The notes beneath the pieces are model-generated. The model was not told the DNA's origin and made no database searches. It saw only the letters and a list, made by a program, of their open reading frames with translations. Made by a program: the position numbers and the translations under genes. From Nitrospiraceae bacterium (GTDB lineage: Bacteria > Nitrospirota > Thermodesulfovibrionia > Thermodesulfovibrionales > Dissulfurispiraceae), in assembly GCA_021371915.1 (NCBI GenBank), contig JAJFVG010000031.1, forward strand, positions 1 to 32,767: a DNA stretch of 32,767 nt, written 5' to 3'. Shown here piece by piece: positions 14,029 to 24,808 of the stretch; the first letter of the stretch is position 1; each line of letters starts with the position of its first letter.

Positions 14029-15546
14029 TTATGCTTTGAATTCGTTGGCTGTATTTTTGAGCTTTTCAGCAACGCTTGCAAGAGATTTAACCTCTTCCAC
14101 AACTTCTACGGACAGAGTTTCTATCTGCTTGGCTGTTGCGAGTGTCTGCTCTGTATTCTCAGCAACCTCTGAAGAGGTTGCTGACTGCTGTTCGACCGCA
14201 GTAGCTATCTGGGTGATCTGGTCTCTCACCTTCTGCACTTCATTTACTATATGGTTAAGAGATACTCCCACCTCTTTGATAAATTCAGTTGCCTTTGTGA
14301 CTTCACTGGATGCATCTGACATGGATTTTGCAGTCTGTTCGGATTCTGCCTGCACAGAACCTATCTTGTCAGATATCTCCGCAGTTGCCTTTATTGTGCG
14401 TTCGGCCAGCTTTCTCACCTCATCCGCAACAACTGCAAATCCCCGGCCCTGTTCTCCTGCCCTTGCAGCTTCTATTGCAGCATTGAGCGCAAGGAGGTTG
14501 GTCTGGTCTGCAATGTCATTGATCACTGTAATTATCTCTCCGATCTCGCCCACCCTGTTATTCAGCTTTTCAACCATTGTGGCGAGTTCGATCGTGGATG
14601 TATAGACCCTGTTTACAGTCTCTACAGCGCCGTCAGCAATCTTCTGCCCCTGCTTGGCTGTCTCCATTGCCTGGCCTGATGTATCTGATGCAACTGACGC
14701 GTTTCTGGCAATATCGCCTATGGTATGGTTCATCTCTTCAGCAGCTGTTGCGATATTGGATGCCTGCATTGCCTGGTGCTTTGCCTTTTCTGCAGCATCA
14801 GCCCCCTTTGCGCTAAGAAGAGAAACAACACTGCCCACGCTCTCTGATGACGAGAACATCGCCTTGATGAGAGACTGGAATGAAGAAACCATCCTTCTGA
14901 CGCTTCCAGCCATGGAGCCTATCTCGTCATTTTTTGAATAATCAACAGTTACACGCAGATCGCCTGAGGAGATTTTTGATATCTTTGCCTCTATGTCAGC
15001 AAGTGGCCTTGATATGTTCGATCTGCTCTTGAGCCAGATAAAACAAACAACAGCAAGGTTGAGCAAGAAGAGGATAACTGCCATGTATCCGAGTCTGCCT
15101 GCCTTTTTCTCTGAATATGCCTCAGCAGCAGAAACCGCCTTGTTTGTCAGATCGAAATAAGCCTCGCTATCCTTGAGAAGCTCCGGTTTCAGCTCCGGCT
15201 TCTGCCTTGCATTCATCACGTCCTGTTTGAGCTTGTCCCAATATGTTTTCACCTCTTTCATGCTCGAAAGAAAAGTCTCGTCCTTGGCTTTTGGAAGTCC
15301 GAGTTCCTTGTTGCCTTCCATAAGTCCGGCAATAATGCTGTCGAGTTTTGCAATAAGTTTGTCCTGCGGCTGACCCGACATTTCAAGCTTTACAATTCTC
15401 TGGGTGGCACCCCGGACTATGCCTGAATAGTTCACAACCTTCCCATCGTCTTTCATATCGAGCTGCCAGAAAACAAAGAGTACATTGATAAGCGGGAAAA
15501 TCAATAAAAGTACTATAACAATCTGGAGCTGCCTGCTGATCTTCAT
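14029..15546 (-). CDS. Methyl-accepting chemotaxis protein with PilJ/NarX-like sensor region
   Basis: The 505-residue receptor has transmembrane helices at about 9-28 and 153-172, a periplasmic helical region between them, HAMP at about 173-225 and a cytoplasmic signalling coiled coil. The hairpin tip [21 protein letters not shown] to KLAERT (347-384) is the conserved CheA/CheW contact. The sensor region contains [20 protein letters not shown] (39-58), resembling the helix of the PilJ/NarX-type ligand domain. No C-terminal CheR-tethering pentapeptide is present. AGGAGGG precedes the ATG at 15546. Ligand unknown. Confidence 0.93.
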
Positions 15547-15582: not shown

Positions 15583-16638
15583 CTATACCGAGTTAACTAT
15601 CTCACCTGCAATATCTTCCAATGCAAGTATCTTGTCCGCAGTGCCGGCATCCACAACAGCCTTGGGCATGCCGTACACCACGCATGTCTCTTCATTCTGC
15701 GCAAAAACCCTTGAACCGGTACTCTTCATCGCAGCAAGTCCCTTTGCTCCGTCAGCGCCCATGCCGGTCAGGATAACGCCTAATGCCCTGCCAGGGAAAA
15801 ATTCCGCTACAGAAAGCATGAGCGCATCAACAGACGGCCTGTATATATACTCCTCCTTGCTGCCCGGGGTTATATGCACTGTTGTCTCAATGCCGCGCAC
15901 GCGCTGCACCCTCATATGCCCCCAGCCGGGTGCGATCAGTGCAACTCCTGGCTTAAGGGACTCTCCGTCCTCTGCTTCCTTAACCGTAATGTTGCTGAGC
16001 TGATTCAGGCGCTCAGCAAACGGTCCGGTAAAGTTTGCAGGCATATGCTGCGCTATAACAATAGGAATCGGGAAATCCTTTGGAAGATGCGGAATTATCT
16101 CCTGAAGCGCCTTGGGCCCTCCTGTGGATGTGCCTATGGATACAAGCGTCACCTTGCGTTCGCCGGTTGATCTGACTTTTAGTTCCGGTTTTGGTGCAGA
16201 CTCAACGCCAGCTGACACAGGACGCGGCTTGCGCCGTACTACCCCGCGTTTTGCAAGATGCTTTACCTTCTCAATGAGAGACTCCTTGATCTTGACTATA
16301 TTGACCGAAAGATCAGAGAGGTTCTTTGGAATAAAGTCCACTGCTCCAAGATCAAATGCATCGAGTGTCTCTTTTGCGCCTTCAACCGTAAGAGAACTCA
16401 GCATGATTACAGGTACAGGAGTCTTCTCCATAATATGCTTCAGCGCAGTCAGTCCATCCATCCTCGGCATCTCTATATCAAGAGTAACCAGGTCCGGCTT
16501 CAGGAGCGCGACTTTCTCTATCGCCTCAAGCCCATCCTTGGCAGTGCCTACTATATTGATTTCGTGATCAGACGACAGCATCGATGAGATGGCATTTCTC
16601 ATGAATGCTGAGTCATCTACAATAAGAACCTTTACCAT
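15583..16638 (-). CDS. cheB: Protein-glutamate methylesterase/glutaminase CheB
   Basis: The 351-residue CheB has an N-terminal receiver with D8-D9 and phosphoacceptor D54 (TLDIEMPRMDG), a basic linker at about 127-162, and the C-terminal esterase. The catalytic triad is visible as S171 (SIGTSTGG), H198 (AQHMP) and D296 (GMGADG). It removes methyl groups from receptors, opposing CheR, and is activated by phosphate from CheA. The ATG at 16638 lies 4 bases after the CheW-CheZ gene. Confidence 0.96.
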   Translation of the reverse strand: MVKVLIVDDSAFMRNAISSMLSSDHEINIVGTAKDGLEAIEKVALLKPDLVTLDIEMPRMDGLTALKHIMEKTPVPVIMLSSLTVEGAKETLDAFDLGAVDFIPKNLSDLSVNIVKIKESLIEKVKHLAKRGVVRRKPRPVSAGVESAPKPELKVRSTGERKVTLVSIGTSTGGPKALQEIIPHLPKDFPIPIVIAQHMPANFTGPFAERLNQLSNITVKEAEDGESLKPGVALIAPGWGHMRVQRVRGIETTVHITPGSKEEYIYRPSVDALMLSVAEFFPGRALGVILTGMGADGAKGLAAMKSTGSRVFAQNEETCVVYGMPKAVVDAGTADKILALEDIAGEIVNSV

Positions 16639-16642
16639 TCGT

Positions 16643-17833
16643 TCAGAACCCCAGTTCCTTCAACAGGTCGTCAACATCTTCCTGTGACACTTTTTCTGCC
16701 TCTCCTGCAACAGCGCCTTTTACTGCGCTGTCCATCTTGAAGCCGAATGTGGTTATCATTTTTACAAGCTCTTCTTCTATGTCTCCAACCAGCTTTATCA
16801 CCTTCTTTATCGTCTGGCCAGTTATATCCTGAAATGATTGCGTAGTAAGAATCTCCGTAAGATTGTCCTCAAACTTGTTCTTGAAGTCCTTCAGATATGC
16901 AACTGACTCATCAGGCCCCTGAAGGTTTCTGATATGACCGGCCAGTTCGTCCATGGAAAGAATATGTGTCTCGACAATCTCCATGGTCTTGTTTGCAGCC
17001 TCTTCTGTCTTTGTTATGACGAACTGGAGCTTGTCCACTGCATTAGGCATTTCAGTTACAGCCATGTCCTTGAGTTTTGGATCAAGGGCCTCCTTGAAGC
17101 TCCTTATGGAATCATGCAGTTTTCTTGTTATCCTGCCCACCTCTTTAAACAGGTCGGACTGACCTGATTTGAGTATGTCCTGTATCATGATGTCAGCTTT
17201 CTCATAATCATTTCCGTTTACAGCATCCATAAACGAGACAAGCTTTTCTACGATCTGATACTTCGGGTCATCAGCAGACATGCCCTGCTTCTGGAAAAAT
17301 GCCTTTGCATCTACAACTTCTTTGACCAGCACCTCACCGCCAACCCCCTCGATCTTCTTGACTACTTCCAGCTTGTCGCTGCCCTCAATCTCCTTGTAGT
17401 CAAAAACCTGATCTTCGAACATGCTAAGATCTTCCACAGGTATGAGTTTTTTTGTATCGAGCAGCACAACGAGCTTGTCATCAACCCGCGCCACTCCTTC
17501 GATCTGTTCAAGGTTGGACTGCATGAAGTTCTCAGCAGGCTCGATCAAAGACTGTTCAATAGCCACCACGCCTGTGATGCTGTCCACCAGAATGCCGAAC
17601 ACGATCTTTCCGCTGGATATGACTATAACCTTGTCGCCGCCCTCGCCAGGCAGTCCGACAAGCTTCTTGAGGTTGACCACAGGAATGATCTTGCCCCTGA
17701 GATTGGTTATACCCTCTATATAATCCGGCGCCTGGGGCAGCTTGGTAACTGAAGGCACATTTACTATCTCCTGCACCTTCAGAATAGGAATTGAGTATTC
17801 GTTCGAATTCATCATGAAGCCTATATATTGCAT
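16643..17833 (-). CDS. CheW-CheZ fusion: coupling protein joined to CheY-P phosphatase
   Basis: Residues 1-135 form a CheW domain (SIPILKVQEIVNVPSVTKLP, then GITNLRGKIIPVVNLKKLVG), which links receptors to CheA. From about 180 the protein is a CheZ: NAVDKLQFVITKTEEAANKTMEIVE is the long hairpin helix. FQDITGQTIKKV holds D336 and Q340, equivalent to catalytic D143 and Q147 of the Escherichia coli enzyme. The last ten residues VDDLLKELGF closely match the E. coli CheZ tail that captures CheY-P. Residues 136-180 form an acidic linker. It is the only CheW-like gene besides cheA here and lies between cheA and cheB. GAGGAGA precedes the ATG at 17833. One continuous frame, with no stop or strong internal ribosome site seen. 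Confidence 0.95.
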   Translation of the reverse strand: MQYIGFMMNSNEYSIPILKVQEIVNVPSVTKLPQAPDYIEGITNLRGKIIPVVNLKKLVGLPGEGGDKVIVISSGKIVFGILVDSITGVVAIEQSLIEPAENFMQSNLEQIEGVARVDDKLVVLLDTKKLIPVEDLSMFEDQVFDYKEIEGSDKLEVVKKIEGVGGEVLVKEVVDAKAFFQKQGMSADDPKYQIVEKLVSFMDAVNGNDYEKADIMIQDILKSGQSDLFKEVGRITRKLHDSIRSFKEALDPKLKDMAVTEMPNAVDKLQFVITKTEEAANKTMEIVETHILSMDELAGHIRNLQGPDESVAYLKDFKNKFEDNLTEILTTQSFQDITGQTIKKVIKLVGDIEEELVKMITTFGFKMDSAVKGAVAGEAEKVSQEDVDDLLKELGF

Positions 17834-17845
17834 GCTGTCTCCTCT

Positions 17846-19687
17846 TTATTTGGATGATGCGGCAAACAGTCCGCGCGCCATTACAGCAAGGTCGATTATC
17901 AGCACCACTGTGCCATCGCCTGTTATTGTGGCTCCGAGTATGCCGCATTCATCAGAATCAATACCGTTTATCGTCTTGATCACAACCTCTTCCTGCCCGA
18001 GCAGTTCGTCAACAGATATGCAGAATCGTCTGTCTCCGACAACCATCACAAGTATGTATGTGTGGTCTTTGTCTTCTACAACACCTTTTCTGACATTGAG
18101 CACTGCTGCCATGTCGTACATGGGCAGCACGCGTTCGCGTATTGTGAGCACCTTCTGCCCTGCTATGTCTTTTATGTCCTGTTTCTTTATTCTTATGGTC
18201 TCTTCAACCATGGACTGCGGCACAGCGTACACCTCGTTGCCCACCTTTATCATCATTGCCTGCAGAATTGCGAGGGTCAGAGGCAGGCTTATTCTGAAGG
18301 TGCTGCCCACATCCTTTTTGGTTATAACCTCAACATATCCGTTTAGCTTGGCAACATTGGTCTTGACCACATCCATGCCAACGCCCCTGCCGCTGAGTTC
18401 AGTGGATACCTCTTTGGTCGAAAAGCCTGGAAGGAATATCAGATTGATGATCGCATCCTCAGACATCTTCAAGGCTTCTTCCTCTGTGATAAGCCCTTTG
18501 CTTATGGCCTTTTTCTTTACGACCTCAAGATCAATTCCCTTGCCGTCATCAATAACCTCGATGACAATAAGAGTTCCCTTCTGGAATGCGCTTATTATTA
18601 TCCTGCCCTTTGGAGGTTTGCCTTTGGCAACCCTGTCATCAGAAAACTCTAGTCCATGGTCAATTGAATTTCTGATTATATGAACAAGCGGATCACCGAT
18701 ATTCTCGATAACGCTCTTGTCCACTTCTGTATCTTCGCCGAATATCTCCAGGTCTATGTCCTTGCCAAGGTTGCGGGACATATCCCTGACCATTCTGGGG
18801 AACTTGCCGAACACCTTGGATATGGGCTGCATCCTCATCTTCATGACCGCGAGCTGAAGGTCAGAGGTTACTCTGTCGAGAAATGCCGTTGTCTCGCTCA
18901 GATTTTCAACAAGCGGATCACCTGCATGGGTGGTATCGAGTCTGGCAGCTATATTAAGCAGCCTGTTTCTTGCGAGCACTATTTCGCCTGCAAGGTCCAT
19001 AACCTTGTCTATTCTGGCTACATCAACTCTGAGGTTTGCTACAACATCTTTATCTTTGTCTTTGGCTGTTTGCTGAGCTGCTGCTTCATCAGCAGCCGGA
19101 GCTGTAATGGTCTGGACATGCGGCTTTTGCTGCGGATGCGCTGCTGCATGTTCAGGCTCGTGATGAGGCTGGACAACAGAAGGTTCCGGCTTGTGAGGCT
19201 CTGGAGCTGGTTTTTCAACAACAGGTTCTTTCGGCTGTTCAGCAGCAGCTGCCGGTGGTGCTTCAGCAGGTTTTTCAGCGACCGCTGCCTCACCGCTTGT
19301 TGCTGCTTCAAGGGCAGAATCCTGCTCTTGAAGCAGTGCTGATACGTCTTCATCAACGCCGTCTTTCAGCTTTATGTGAGAGATCAACAACCTGAGGGCG
19401 TCAACACTCTTGAGGATAACATCCATCAATGGCGTTGTCATCGAAATCTCGCCATCGCGCACCTTCTTCATTATGCTTTCAGAACGGTGAGCAACATCAA
19501 CTATCGACTGAAAACCTAGAAAGCCTGCAGCGCCTTTAAGGGTGTGCATGCCGCGGAATATTTCATTCAGCAGATCCTTGTTGTAGCCCTTTGTCTCAAG
19601 CTCAATAAATAACGGGTCAATCCGCTCGAGAGTCTCTTCAGCCTCTGTAACGAATTCGTTTATTATTTCATCCATCTCATCAGCCAT
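17846..19687 (-). CDS. cheA: Chemotaxis histidine kinase CheA
   Basis: The 613-residue kinase has a P1 domain with phosphorylated H48 (MHTLKGAAGFLG). Residues 125-215 are a low-complexity linker of Pro, Ala, Glu and His with no recognisable P2 domain. P3 (about 216-280) is followed by the P4 ATPase with N box (HIIRNSIDHGLE, 336-347), G1 (DDGKGID, 380-386), GFST (421-424) and G2 (GRGVGMD, 433-439). P5, the CheW-like regulatory domain, occupies about 470-613. It passes phosphate to CheY and CheB. The loss of P2, which docks CheY and CheB, is known in some CheA proteins and may slow transfer. GGGGGAT lies upstream of the ATG at 19687. Confidence 0.96.
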   Translation of the reverse strand: MADEMDEIINEFVTEAEETLERIDPLFIELETKGYNKDLLNEIFRGMHTLKGAAGFLGFQSIVDVAHRSESIMKKVRDGEISMTTPLMDVILKSVDALRLLISHIKLKDGVDEDVSALLQEQDSALEAATSGEAAVAEKPAEAPPAAAAEQPKEPVVEKPAPEPHKPEPSVVQPHHEPEHAAAHPQQKPHVQTITAPAADEAAAQQTAKDKDKDVVANLRVDVARIDKVMDLAGEIVLARNRLLNIAARLDTTHAGDPLVENLSETTAFLDRVTSDLQLAVMKMRMQPISKVFGKFPRMVRDMSRNLGKDIDLEIFGEDTEVDKSVIENIGDPLVHIIRNSIDHGLEFSDDRVAKGKPPKGRIIISAFQKGTLIVIEVIDDGKGIDLEVVKKKAISKGLITEEEALKMSEDAIINLIFLPGFSTKEVSTELSGRGVGMDVVKTNVAKLNGYVEVITKKDVGSTFRISLPLTLAILQAMMIKVGNEVYAVPQSMVEETIRIKKQDIKDIAGQKVLTIRERVLPMYDMAAVLNVRKGVVEDKDHTYILVMVVGDRRFCISVDELLGQEEVVIKTINGIDSDECGILGATITGDGTVVLIIDLAVMARGLFAASSK

Positions 19688-19688
19688 G

Positions 19689-20102
19689 CTATCCCCCGGC
19701 TTTCAGTGAAGTTCTCTTATCAGCGATCTTCTCGAGCTTCTCTTTGAGTATCTCAGCGGTAAACGGTTTGACTATATAGTTGTCCACGCCCGCTTTAATA
19801 GCCTCAATAACCTTCTCCTTCTCTGCCTCGGCAGTGACCATAAGAAACGGAGTATCCTTGAGCGCAGCGTCAGCCCGCACATTCCTCAGGAGCTCGATGC
19901 CCTCCATGTTGGGCATGTTCCAGTCTGAGACCACGAGTCCGTAAGTAGTGCTTCTCATCTTGTTGAGAGCCATATTGCCGTCTTCAGCTTCATCTATGTT
20001 CTCAAACCCCAACTGTTTAAGCAGGTTTTTGACTATGCGCCTCATTGTTGGAAAGTCGTCCACAACAAGAACTTTTATCTTGAAATCAAACACCAGCTCC
20101 AC
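19689..20102 (-). CDS. cheY: Motor-binding response regulator CheY
   Basis: This receiver (up to 137 residues) closely follows enterobacterial Che[19 protein letters not shown], then [15 protein letters not shown] with phosphoacceptor D60, T90 in MVTAEA and K112 in VKPFTA. CheY-P binds the FliM N-terminus and changes rotation. Two GTG codons compete as starts, at 20102 and 20093. The purine-rich run GGGGGTGGAG lies better for the later one, which would give 134 residues. The gene overlaps the preceding receiver gene by 17 bases. Confidence 0.93.
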
Positions 20103-20478
20103 CCCCTTTGCTGAAAATCTGTTTTATTATCCGTTTTATGCTGTCAGTTATCTGTTCTGCGTTGGAAGGCTTGACAAGATAGTCGTTGACCCCGGCTTCA
20201 AATGCCCTCTTTTTCTCTTCTTCATCAGCTTCAGTGGTCAGCATTATTACCGGCATTTCCGCCAGTACCGCATCATTGCGCATATTCTTCACAAGCTCAA
20301 TGCCGTCCATAAAAGGCATGTTCATGTCACTGACCACAAGATTCACATTCTCCGTGCCAAGCTTTTCCATTGCTTCAAGGCCGTTTTCAGCGGCAACAAC
20401 CTCATATCCCTTTGCCTTGAGATACAGGGTCAGCAGCTTTCTGGTGGTCTTGTCGTCATCAACTATCAGAATCTTCAT
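20086..20478 (-). CDS. Second CheY-like receiver
   Basis: The 130-residue single receiver has acidic residues D7-D9, phosphoacceptor D51 ([12 protein letters not shown]), a threonine pair in MLTTEA and K104 in LVKP. It is more like the generic PilG/PilH or environmental CheY type than the motor CheY next door: it lacks the DFPTMRRIV stretch and ends in a Gly-rich tail. It could be a phosphate sink, as in two-CheY systems, or a separate output. GAGGGGATG precedes its ATG at 20478. Confidence 0.9.
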
Positions 20479-20493
20479 ATCATCCCCTCGTAA

Positions 20494-21324
20494 CTACACT
20501 TTCTGATATATAATCACTTTATTAATAACCACAGGTCTGAATGCTCTTGTCACGCTGTGCAGGCTCTCTGATGTGCCTATTATAAGATAACCTCCGGGCC
20601 TTAGAGCATCGTAAAGGTGAGAGACCACCTTCTGCTTTGCCTTGTCATCAAAATAAATGAGTACATTCCTGCAGAAAACCACATCCATGCCGCGCAGCGC
20701 TTTCACATCCTTTTCTTCAAAGAGATTGACCTTGGAAAACTTGACCATCTTTTTGATGGCAGGCGAAAGCTGATACTGCTGGTTATTGTCCGTAAAGTAT
20801 TTCTTCAGATACTGTTCAGGGACGTTTCTTATGGAGTATGATCCGTAAAGAGCATTTTTTGCCGAGGCCAGTACAGAGTCACTTATATCCGAGGCGTATA
20901 TGTCTGCTGTAAACGGTTTGATATCCATTGACTCGTTCAATAAAATTGCCACTGTGTAGGCCTCTTCACCGGTTGAGCTGGCAGCAGACCATATTTTGAT
21001 GTCCTTTCTGCCTGATTTTGTATTCTCAGCCTTTAGCCGCGTAAGCAGTTCGCCTGTGAGCAGTTCAAACTGAAGAGGCTCTCTGAAAAAAAAGGTCTCG
21101 TTGGTGGTGACCATATCAAAGAGCTTGTTGTATTCAGGCTTATCATTTCCGTACTTGAGTATGTAGAGATAGTCGTCATATGACTTGAGGTTCTTCTCCT
21201 GAATTCTTCTGCCGAGCCTGTTCTCAAGAAAATATTTTTTGTTGTCAGGTATGAATATACCGCTCTTTTCATATATGAAATCTCTGAGTTGTCTGAAGAC
21301 TTCTTCAGTTAGCGCTGGAGTCAT
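20494..21324 (-). CDS. cheR: Chemoreceptor glutamate methyltransferase CheR
   Basis: The 276-residue CheR has an N-terminal helical domain (FRQLRDFIYEKSGIFIP to RLGRRI) and a SAM-binding methyltransferase domain: TTNETFFFRE, IWSAASSTGEEAYTVAI (the SAM loop), FCRNVLIYFD and GGYLIIGTSESL. It methylates receptor glutamates to raise CheA activity, opposing CheB. The ATG overlaps the stop of the HEAT-repeat gene as ATGA, so translation is coupled to that gene. Confidence 0.96.
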   Translation of the reverse strand: MTPALTEEVFRQLRDFIYEKSGIFIPDNKKYFLENRLGRRIQEKNLKSYDDYLYILKYGNDKPEYNKLFDMVTTNETFFFREPLQFELLTGELLTRLKAENTKSGRKDIKIWSAASSTGEEAYTVAILLNESMDIKPFTADIYASDISDSVLASAKNALYGSYSIRNVPEQYLKKYFTDNNQQYQLSPAIKKMVKFSKVNLFEEKDVKALRGMDVVFCRNVLIYFDDKAKQKVVSHLYDALRPGGYLIIGTSESLHSVTRAFRPVVINKVIIYQKV

Positions 21325-23174
21325 ATCGTATCCAATGCCTCTCTTATCTTTTCTTTGATATCGTCGTTCGGATGTTCCGCAAGCGGACTCAGCGCTTCAT
21401 ATGCCTCTGCTCCACCTATCTCTTTTATTGCATCTATGGCTGACATAACAACGGGTATGAACTCGTCATTAAGCATTTTTGACATCAGATGCACAAGCTG
21501 TTCCCTGTCATCACATGTCTGCGCGACTGATTTGACAGCATAGAACCTGACCCACTGGTCCTTGTCATCAAGGGCTGAAATCAGCTCCTGCGAGCATATT
21601 CCAGCATTGCCGAGACCTGCAACAGCAGCCTTGCGTATCTCAGGATTCGTATCAGACAGGAAGGCTACCAGCCTGTTTGCCGCCTGTTGTCCGGTCACAA
21701 AACCGAGTCCCTTGACAGCAGCAATCTTTACGCGCTCATCAGGATCATTGGCGAGCTGTATAAGCAGATCAGCATCCCTGACTATGCCGGCTGTTATCTC
21801 TTTTACGGAATTATTGTAAACACCGAAGCCGTCAATGAACGCCTTCTGGTCTATCATCATCAGGGCTTTTACTATCTCTTCTTTCACATCAAAGTATTTC
21901 TCCACCTCAAGCAGACTCATAAGAGGAGCAAACGCCTCGCGTGTGCCTATATTGCCGAGCGCCTGGATTGCAGCCTTTCGCACATGAGCGTCAGCATCAG
22001 TCTGCGAAGCATCAAGCAGGCTGCCTACACTCTCGTGCGAGCCAATGTCACCAAGCGCCTTTGCAGATGCCCTTCTCATATCCCTGCTGGTGTCTTTCAG
22101 ATTCCTAAGTATCGCAGGAACCGCTTTTACGCTCTTCATCTCGCCAAGAAGCCCTATCGTAAGAGATCTGCCGCGATACCGGGTCTGATCATCCTCGAGT
22201 ATTTTAAGGAGTTCATCTTCCGAATCTATGTTTTTTATCGCATTGCGTATCTGCTCGACCTTTTCTTCATTGCCGAGTATCGATATATCAAGAGAACCGG
22301 CCAGGTTGATAAGATCACGCACAGCAGCTTTGCAGTTGAGGTCAATAATACCCCTGAGCGTAATCTCCAGATCTTCATCATCGCTCTTTTGGAGCATCAC
22401 CAGCAGGTGATCCGTAAGATCAGCCATATCAGGAGTAATGCCTATCTGTATCATGCTTTTTATAATTGCGTTTGTCTCGTCGCTGTCAGCATCCGAAAGA
22501 TAGCCCATCAGGTATGGGATGGCCTTGCCTGAACCAATATTGCCGAGCACCTCTATAGCCGCAAACCGCACGGCAGGACTTGTATTATCATTGAGCAGCG
22601 CACCGATTGCCGGAACCGAATCCTCTGCCCTCATCTCACCAAGCGATTCAAGGACTGAGAAGCAGACCCACTCCTCATCATTGATAGCCTGGATCAACTG
22701 AGGCACAGCATCCGCGTAGTTGAGCAGGCCTATGGTCTTGGCAGCAGCTGCCCTTACATTGGGGTTTGAGTCCTTGAGCATAGGGACAACCAGCTTCACA
22801 TCAACGCCGGTCTTTATCTCTCCCATAAGATCAAGCCCGAACTTTCTTACATCATCATCCTTGTCATTCAAAAGATTGTAAAGAAGCGGCACGCTGTGTT
22901 CACCGATTGAGGTGAGTATTATTAAAGCAGTATTTCGTATGAAAGTGCCTTCCCTCAGAAGCGGGATCACCATGTAAGCGGTAGTTTCTCCGCCTATAGC
23001 CATAAGCGACCGCATGGCAGCATCCTGAACGCCAGCATTTGTATCACTCAATGCCTTGATCAGCGGATAAACAGCCCTTTCATCTCCATTTGAAAGTTCC
23101 TCAGCTGCGCTTCTTCTTACAGCCGGATCTTTGTGCGAAAGTTTTTTAAGGAGATTCTTCAATTGCCTGGCCAT
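21321..23174 (-). CDS. HEAT-repeat protein (all-helical scaffold), first gene of the chemotaxis operon
   Basis: The 617-residue protein consists almost entirely of HEAT/PBS-lyase-like repeats of about 30 residues. Units such as DPAVRRSAAEELSNGD, NPNVRAAAAKTIGLLN, SPAVRFAAIEVLGNIG and NPEIRKAAVAGLGNAG share the D/N-P-x-V-R-x-A-A-x-x-L-G pattern. No signal peptide, membrane segment or catalytic motif is seen, so it is probably a cytoplasmic binding scaffold. AAGGAG precedes the ATG at 23174. The stop overlaps cheR, and the gene follows a predicted sigma-28 promoter. Its role in chemosensing is inferred from context only; partner candidates are CheR, CheA and the receptor. Confidence 0.9.
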   Translation of the reverse strand: MARQLKNLLKKLSHKDPAVRRSAAEELSNGDERAVYPLIKALSDTNAGVQDAAMRSLMAIGGETTAYMVIPLLREGTFIRNTALIILTSIGEHSVPLLYNLLNDKDDDVRKFGLDLMGEIKTGVDVKLVVPMLKDSNPNVRAAAAKTIGLLNYADAVPQLIQAINDEEWVCFSVLESLGEMRAEDSVPAIGALLNDNTSPAVRFAAIEVLGNIGSGKAIPYLMGYLSDADSDETNAIIKSMIQIGITPDMADLTDHLLVMLQKSDDEDLEITLRGIIDLNCKAAVRDLINLAGSLDISILGNEEKVEQIRNAIKNIDSEDELLKILEDDQTRYRGRSLTIGLLGEMKSVKAVPAILRNLKDTSRDMRRASAKALGDIGSHESVGSLLDASQTDADAHVRKAAIQALGNIGTREAFAPLMSLLEVEKYFDVKEEIVKALMMIDQKAFIDGFGVYNNSVKEITAGIVRDADLLIQLANDPDERVKIAAVKGLGFVTGQQAANRLVAFLSDTNPEIRKAAVAGLGNAGICSQELISALDDKDQWVRFYAVKSVAQTCDDREQLVHLMSKMLNDEFIPVVMSAIDAIKEIGGAEAYEALSPLAEHPNDDIKEKIREALDTI

Positions 23175-24001: not shown

Positions 24002-24808
24002 TCAGACTCTCAAAGCCTTGCGCAGGAAAAACTGAATATTGCCCTTTACAGTGCCCTGCGGCAGATCGAGCAACTTTCTGCCTATCTGCCCGAGATGCTT
24101 TGAAAAGCTGCTGTTGGGATAAAGCGCTATATAGCCTTTCTGTGCGATTATCGCGTCCTTCACATTCTGGTCGAGCGGCAGATAACCAAGATAGTCTATC
24201 GAAATATTAAGGAATTTGTCAGCTACTATTGCAAGCTTCCTGAAAGTATCAAACGCCTCTTTCTCCGACCTTGCCGTATTGACGAGAATCCTGAACTGTT
24301 TCTCACCGAAATCCCTAGAAAGCACCTTGATAAGGGCATAGGCATCAGCTATGGATGTTGGCTCCGGTGTGACTATGACGATCGTCTCCTGTGCTGCGCT
24401 GCAGAAAAAGAGTACATTGTCTGATATCCCGGCGCCCGTATCTATGAGAAAAATGTCAAAAGGCGTGTCAAACGAATCGAGCTCCGATACCAGTTTAAGC
24501 CTCTGCTTGTCATTAAGTTTGGTCAACTCTCTTATGCCAGAGCTGGCAGGCAGTATCATAACCCCGAGCGGCCCATTCACTATTGTGTCCTTCAGCTTCT
24601 TTTCACCCAGCAGAACATGCCTGAGGTTGAATTTTGGAGCCAGGCCGAAGAGTACATCTATGTTGCTCAGGCCGAGGTCAGCATCCAGTATCAGGACTCT
24701 TTAGTTGAGGCTGGCGTAGAAGAGCGCAAGGTTGGCCACAAAGTTGGTCTTGCCCACCCCACCCTTGCCGCTCGAAACAGCGATTATTCTTGGCATCTTA
24801 GAGTCCAT
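24002..24808 (-). pseudogene. flhG: flhG (fleN, MinD-like ATPase) interrupted by one in-frame stop
   Basis: From the ATG at 24808 (GGAGG upstream, overlapping the flhF stop as TAATG) the frame encodes a Walker A motif SGKGGVGKT (13-21), then meets TAA at 24703-24701 (codon 36). It continues in the same frame with RVLILDADLGLSNIDVLFGL through IDTGAG to a normal end at 24002. Together the parts make a standard 268-codon FlhG. The stop replaces the residue usually Lys or Gly-Lys in this loop; one base change from AAA would explain it. FlhG controls flagellar number with FlhF. Possibilities are a true nonsense mutation, a sequence error, or readthrough. A restart at GTG 24580 would lack the ATP-binding site. 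Confidence 0.88.

Follow-up and report, generated by a model that had tools for sequence, protein, structure and literature searches.

Relation to described chemotaxis proteins

For decades there has been dispute over where CheY-P is destroyed, a matter that determines whether every motor of a cell receives the same signal. In E. coli, some of the CheZ is tethered to the receptor array through CheA-short; to our knowledge, the placement of CheZ in bacteria without the CheA-short-binding tip is mostly unknown. Colocalised CheZ sharpens responses in E. coli (PMC2673030), and the binding to CheA-short is made through an aromatic hairpin tip (PMC7750401), with the residues W94, W97 and F98 in the K-12 record. 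The stretch analysed here (the window, 32,767 nucleotides of a Nitrospiraceae genome) encodes a protein in which a CheW domain and a CheZ phosphatase are joined. E. coli CheZ (1kmi) shares with it the catalytic D/Q motif, the helical hairpin, the flexible spacer and the CheY-binding tail, but is a free protein without a CheW domain, localised by CheA-short via its tip. The CheW proteins of E. coli, T. maritima and T. tengcongensis share the full CheW fold and the E38/R62 pair, but are stand-alone proteins of 140-170 aa that carry no enzyme.

Two further systems combine an array protein with a domain acting on CheY-P. CheV, an additional adaptor proposed as a phosphate sink (PMC4742279), is likewise a CheW-type second adaptor with a domain proposed to lower CheY-P; however, that domain is a receiver acting as a sink, whereas the fusion appears to carry a CheZ phosphatase domain in its place, and neither Pfam nor NCBIfam detected a receiver domain in the fused protein, which therefore lacks the CheW plus receiver combination of CheV. 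The CheA-CheC/CheX fusions of Leptospirae (PMC10542144) also hold a CheY-P phosphatase domain within a core array protein, but it belongs to another phosphatase family and sits on the kinase rather than on the adaptor. No account of a CheW-CheZ protein turned up in a text search of the open-licence literature, and the term 'undescribed' is used provisionally. Each part is already known; what seems new, on the same provisional footing, is the combination and its spread.

A single gene for CheW and CheZ

The two domains are encoded in one frame on the minus strand (Table 1), running from an ATG at 17833, with a strong GAGGAG ribosome site upstream, to a stop at 16643. The protein comprises CheW at residues 2-131, a linker of ~50 aa and a complete CheZ at about 190-396. 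The single frame proposed in the sequence-only reading was exact in its coordinates, and both Pfam families score far above their cut-offs.

Table 1. Features of the che locus in the window, and loci of fused CheZ in other families.
Feature	Position or locus	Strand	Basis
Chemoreceptor (MCP) gene	14029..15546	-	Pfam
cheB	15583..16638	-	Pfam, NCBIfam
cheW-cheZ fusion gene	16643..17833	-	One frame, 396 aa; 60 distinct homologous fused frames
CheZ part, residues 190-396	16646..17266	-	PF04344 127.9 bits; AlphaFold2 helices
C-terminal CheY-binding helix VDDLLKELGF (predicted), residues 387-396	16646..16675	-	8/10 identical to E. coli CheZ tail
Phosphatase motif FQDITGQ, residues 334-340	16811..16831	-	D336, Q340 invariant in 47 homologs
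Linker, residues 136-189	17267..17428	-	Low confidence in model
CheW domain, residues 1-135	17429..17833	-	PF01584 113.7 bits; model matches to CheW structures; E22, R46 invariant
cheA (Hpt, dimerisation, ATPase, CheW-like P5)	17846..19687	-	Pfam
cheY, E. coli-like ([10 protein letters not shown]...NYIVKPF)	19689..20102	-	Pfam and sequence comparison
Second CheY-like receiver protein	20086..20478	-	Pfam and sequence comparison
cheR	20494..21324	-	Pfam
HEAT-repeat protein, 617 aa, between fliA and cheR	21321-23174	-	Pfam
Fused CheZ, f22	L042, L050, L051
Fused CheZ, f28	L114, L116, L117, L121, L125
Fused CheZ, f30	L109, L110, L119, L129

Frameshift or assembly error and internal initiation had been named at the outset as objections to a single protein. 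The window genome is fragmented (152 contigs), which might suggest that two genes were joined in error during assembly or annotation; however, 59 further frames from other assemblies, including the single-contig genomes G014, G079, G083 and G312, carry the same fusion and refute this explanation, whose probability we put close to nil. It is also very unlikely that cleavage or internal initiation yields CheW and CheZ as two proteins in the cell, with the joined gene serving translational coupling only. The AlphaFold2 model predicts a partly disordered linker, some homologs have scattered internal starts with Shine-Dalgarno-like sites, and the frame of L106 is broken inside the linker, all of which would suit separate products. 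However, residues 125-240 of the window protein contain no start codon preceded by a Shine-Dalgarno-like site, and the commonest such start among the homologs occurs in only 8 of the 60 frames, none being conserved. The interval 136-214 is held at 75-82 aa in most homologs, and the break in L106, which comes after a run of A in a draft genome, resembles a sequencing error.

CheW domain and linker

The PF01584 profile matches residues 2-131 at 113.7 bits (cut-off 23.5), covering positions 1-134 of 138. E22 and R46 correspond to E38 and R62 of E. coli CheW, and the Thermodesulfovibrionia fusions keep G57 and G99 of CheW as well. NCBIfam agrees with the Pfam domain calls on the fused protein, with scores below its equivalog cut-offs, and sequence matches in the PDB were to CheW structures and to E. 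coli CheZ (1kmi). In the AlphaFold2 model (mean pLDDT 71.6), the CheW barrel is confident and matches CheW structures with Z values of 12.6 to 20.9 (2qdl, Z 20.9; 8c5v, Z 18.9). The profile, the E22/R46 pair and the modelled fold agree with the N-terminal coupling domain that had been proposed from the letters. Linker residues 142-176 are poorly modelled. Residues 190-226 look like the N-terminal helix of CheZ itself, and on this reading the linker proper spans about 50 aa.

CheZ part

PF04344 matches residues 227-396 at 127.9 bits (cut-off 30.7), and the segment 180-396 first assigned to CheZ does match that family. The match falls into two pieces (profile positions 2-77 and 108-203) since the protein lacks a portion of the hairpin. 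The model contains helices at 190-249, a long hairpin at 252-362, a disordered spacer at 364-383 and a tail helix at 384-393, all at modest confidence; it matches 1kmi only weakly by structure (E 0.21), so membership in the CheZ family rests on sequence. Structural matches of the long hairpin to PI3K, VIPP1 and other proteins were set aside as common helical arrangements.

D336 and Q340, correctly picked out beforehand as the catalytic pair, align with D143 and Q147 of E. coli CheZ. All 47 aligned homologs (47/47) match both Pfam families, and E22, R46, D336, T338, G339, Q340, Q384, L391 and G395 are invariant among them. The pattern [FY]QD[ILV]TGQ was found in every fused frame that reaches the active site, and the C-terminal tail of every complete fused frame fits (V/I/L)(D/E)..L...G(F/L). 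The likeness of this tail to the CheY-capturing tail of E. coli, also noted earlier, holds in the comparison with VDDLLDSLGF.

The aromatic CheA-short-binding tip is missing from all aligned Nitrospirota CheZ, both fused and free, and the window type is about 11 residues shorter still. Tip loss as a special consequence of the fusion was rejected, since free Nitrospirota CheZ also lack the tip. The earlier remark on recruitment of CheZ by a short form of CheA in other bacteria applies to enterics but not to Nitrospirota.

Operon context and distribution

The gene belongs to a flagellar che operon. In the window, cheA lies directly upstream of cheW-cheZ with a 12-base gap, and cheB begins 4 bases downstream, followed by the MCP gene. 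Further upstream are the two cheY-like genes, cheR, the HEAT-repeat gene, fliA, flhF, flhA, flhB and fliR. The first of the CheY-like proteins (19689-20102), strikingly close to that of E. coli, is likely the substrate of the fused CheZ. The fused frames usually sit in a conserved che operon, and the order HEAT-cheR-cheY-cheY-cheA-cheWZ-cheB (or with cheWZ before cheA) is kept across many families.

Close-match patterns run against 84,980 genomes picked up five homologs, 66-88% identical, in MAGs assigned to Nitrospirae and Thermodesulfovibrionales. CheZ was present in 234 of the 396 Nitrospirota genomes scanned; the CheZ-containing frames are mostly 395-480 aa long in the class of the window and about 200-275 aa in family f29. 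Nitrospirota genomes yielded 60 distinct fused frames, the one in the window included, nearly all from the class Thermodesulfovibrionia. Plasmid records contained CheZ as separate matches only, none covering 80% of the fusion.

Other CheW proteins and phosphatases of the fusion genomes

The sequence-only reading had stated that the window holds no separate cheW, which is literally true, but the genome carries one on another contig (G000:C74:26051-26455, 142 bits) and, on contig C5, a further CheA accompanied by another CheW. The canonical stand-alone CheW on C74 overturns the further suggestion that every array CheW from this locus could carry a phosphatase. In the tree it groups with the stand-alone CheWs found in or beside the same che operon of relatives, many of which have a stand-alone cheW adjoining cheWZ or cheB. 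CheW matches beyond the fusion and the P5 domain of CheA were found in all of the 26 fusion genomes checked (26/26), including genomes with a single CheA, with at least one frame of stand-alone size among the matches listed; the numbers for each genome are minimum values. Six fusion genomes gave a single CheA match (G203, G079, G168, G047, G146 and G227). The idea that the fusion is the only CheW was rejected by these genome searches. The phosphatase is probably carried by only part of the array's CheW, and the array of the window species likely mixes ordinary CheW with CheW-CheZ.

A profile search of the window genome found no second CheZ, and neither this genome nor the tested genomes of f1 and f5 gave a match to CheC or CheX. 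With CheC and CheX not found, CheW-CheZ is the only recognised CheY-P phosphatase of the window genome.

History of the fusion

In the CheZ tree, the fused proteins form four separate clades among free CheZ, namely Thermodesulfovibrionia, f22, f28 and f30; in families f29 and f32, CheZ is free. When only Thermodesulfovibrionia and f22 were compared, a single fused clade had a p-AU of 0.021, and one clade of all fused CheZ, with f28 and f30 added, was strongly rejected (p-AU 7e-52). In the CheW tree, each fused group has its own clade, and Thermodesulfovibrionia, f22 and f28 come together at a support of 47, too low to decide on a shared origin; compared with stand-alone CheW, the fusion CheW is a separate, fast-diverging lineage. 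Rejection of a single CheZ clade is compatible with an early fusion followed by later separations, and the history could be either three or four fusions or one early fusion with several separations.

The CheZ at L107:1006-1746, which follows fliA and cheY, keeps the fusion linker and has no CheW, a clear case of secondary loss of the CheW domain. At L098:7755-8240 (G154), a window-type fusion CheW without CheZ lies after cheA, and the fused cheWZ of the same genome precedes cheA; the former may derive from a fusion by loss of CheZ. The CheW of the f30 fusions is decayed, scoring 13-29 bits and lacking the conserved NLRG motif. Two of the f28 fusions (Table 1) show a weak match to HAMP in the stretch that separates CheW from CheZ. 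The free f22 CheZ of L087 looks gammaproteobacterial in both arrangement and sequence and may be contamination.

Proposed role of the fused protein

Taken as a whole, the fused protein is probably a second adaptor of the array, working alongside ordinary CheW and keeping CheZ in place there. Its CheW part would take CheW (or CheW-ring) positions between the receptors and CheA P5, beside stand-alone CheW, and the CheZ parts of two copies would form the four-helix dimer typical of CheZ. CheY-P would be caught by the flexible C-terminal helix, with D336 and Q340 speeding its dephosphorylation. Kinase and phosphatase would thus be held together at the array without the enteric CheA-short bridge, the off-switch being fixed at the sensor array by the adaptor-phosphatase fusion, so that CheY-P would be spatially even, at a level set by the composition of the array. 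The expected array binding, dimerisation and phosphatase activity follow what is known of the two families; localisation at the array and the effect on CheY-P are likewise predictions, as is the permanent tie to the array proposed in the sequence-only reading.

Alternatively, the CheW domain might be mainly a docking or regulatory handle rather than a structural part of the array, sensing the state of the array (or competing with CheA P5) and switching the phosphatase on or off; the protein would then act as a regulated phosphatase. The constant presence of stand-alone CheW, with which an array can do without the fused one, would fit such a handle, as would the fast divergence of the fusion CheW and its decay in f30 to below or near the Pfam cut-off. 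However, the E38/R62 equivalents, G57 and G99 are conserved in the Thermodesulfovibrionia fusions, as for a working adaptor, and we regard the handle as improbable. The decayed CheW of f30 and the loss of CheW in L107 imply that array binding is not needed everywhere, and the fusion CheW, being a distinct lineage, may no longer bind one of its partners.

Within the preferred reading of a second adaptor, a more speculative design can be drawn. The CheZ dimer, by joining two CheW domains, may act as a two-handed part that bridges neighbouring CheW sites, with the kinase-to-phosphatase ratio set by array composition; this design, arising (or being kept and lost) several times in Nitrospirota, is possible but rather doubtful. 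A phylum with an adaptor-borne phosphatase offers a natural test, since fused, free and secondarily separated forms occur in the same clade. If array binding is true, CheW would serve to carry output enzymes, beyond its part as a scaffold.

Neighbouring genes

The HEAT-repeat gene is kept in the che operon of most fusion genomes, and we know of no chemotaxis role for its product. The flhG/fleN (MinD-like) gene at 24002-24808 of the minus strand has an in-frame TAA at 24701-24703, either a genuine interruption or a sequencing error in this draft genome; it lies between the P-loop SGKGGVGKT and the remainder of the protein, of which the later 192-aa piece alone is listed as a frame.
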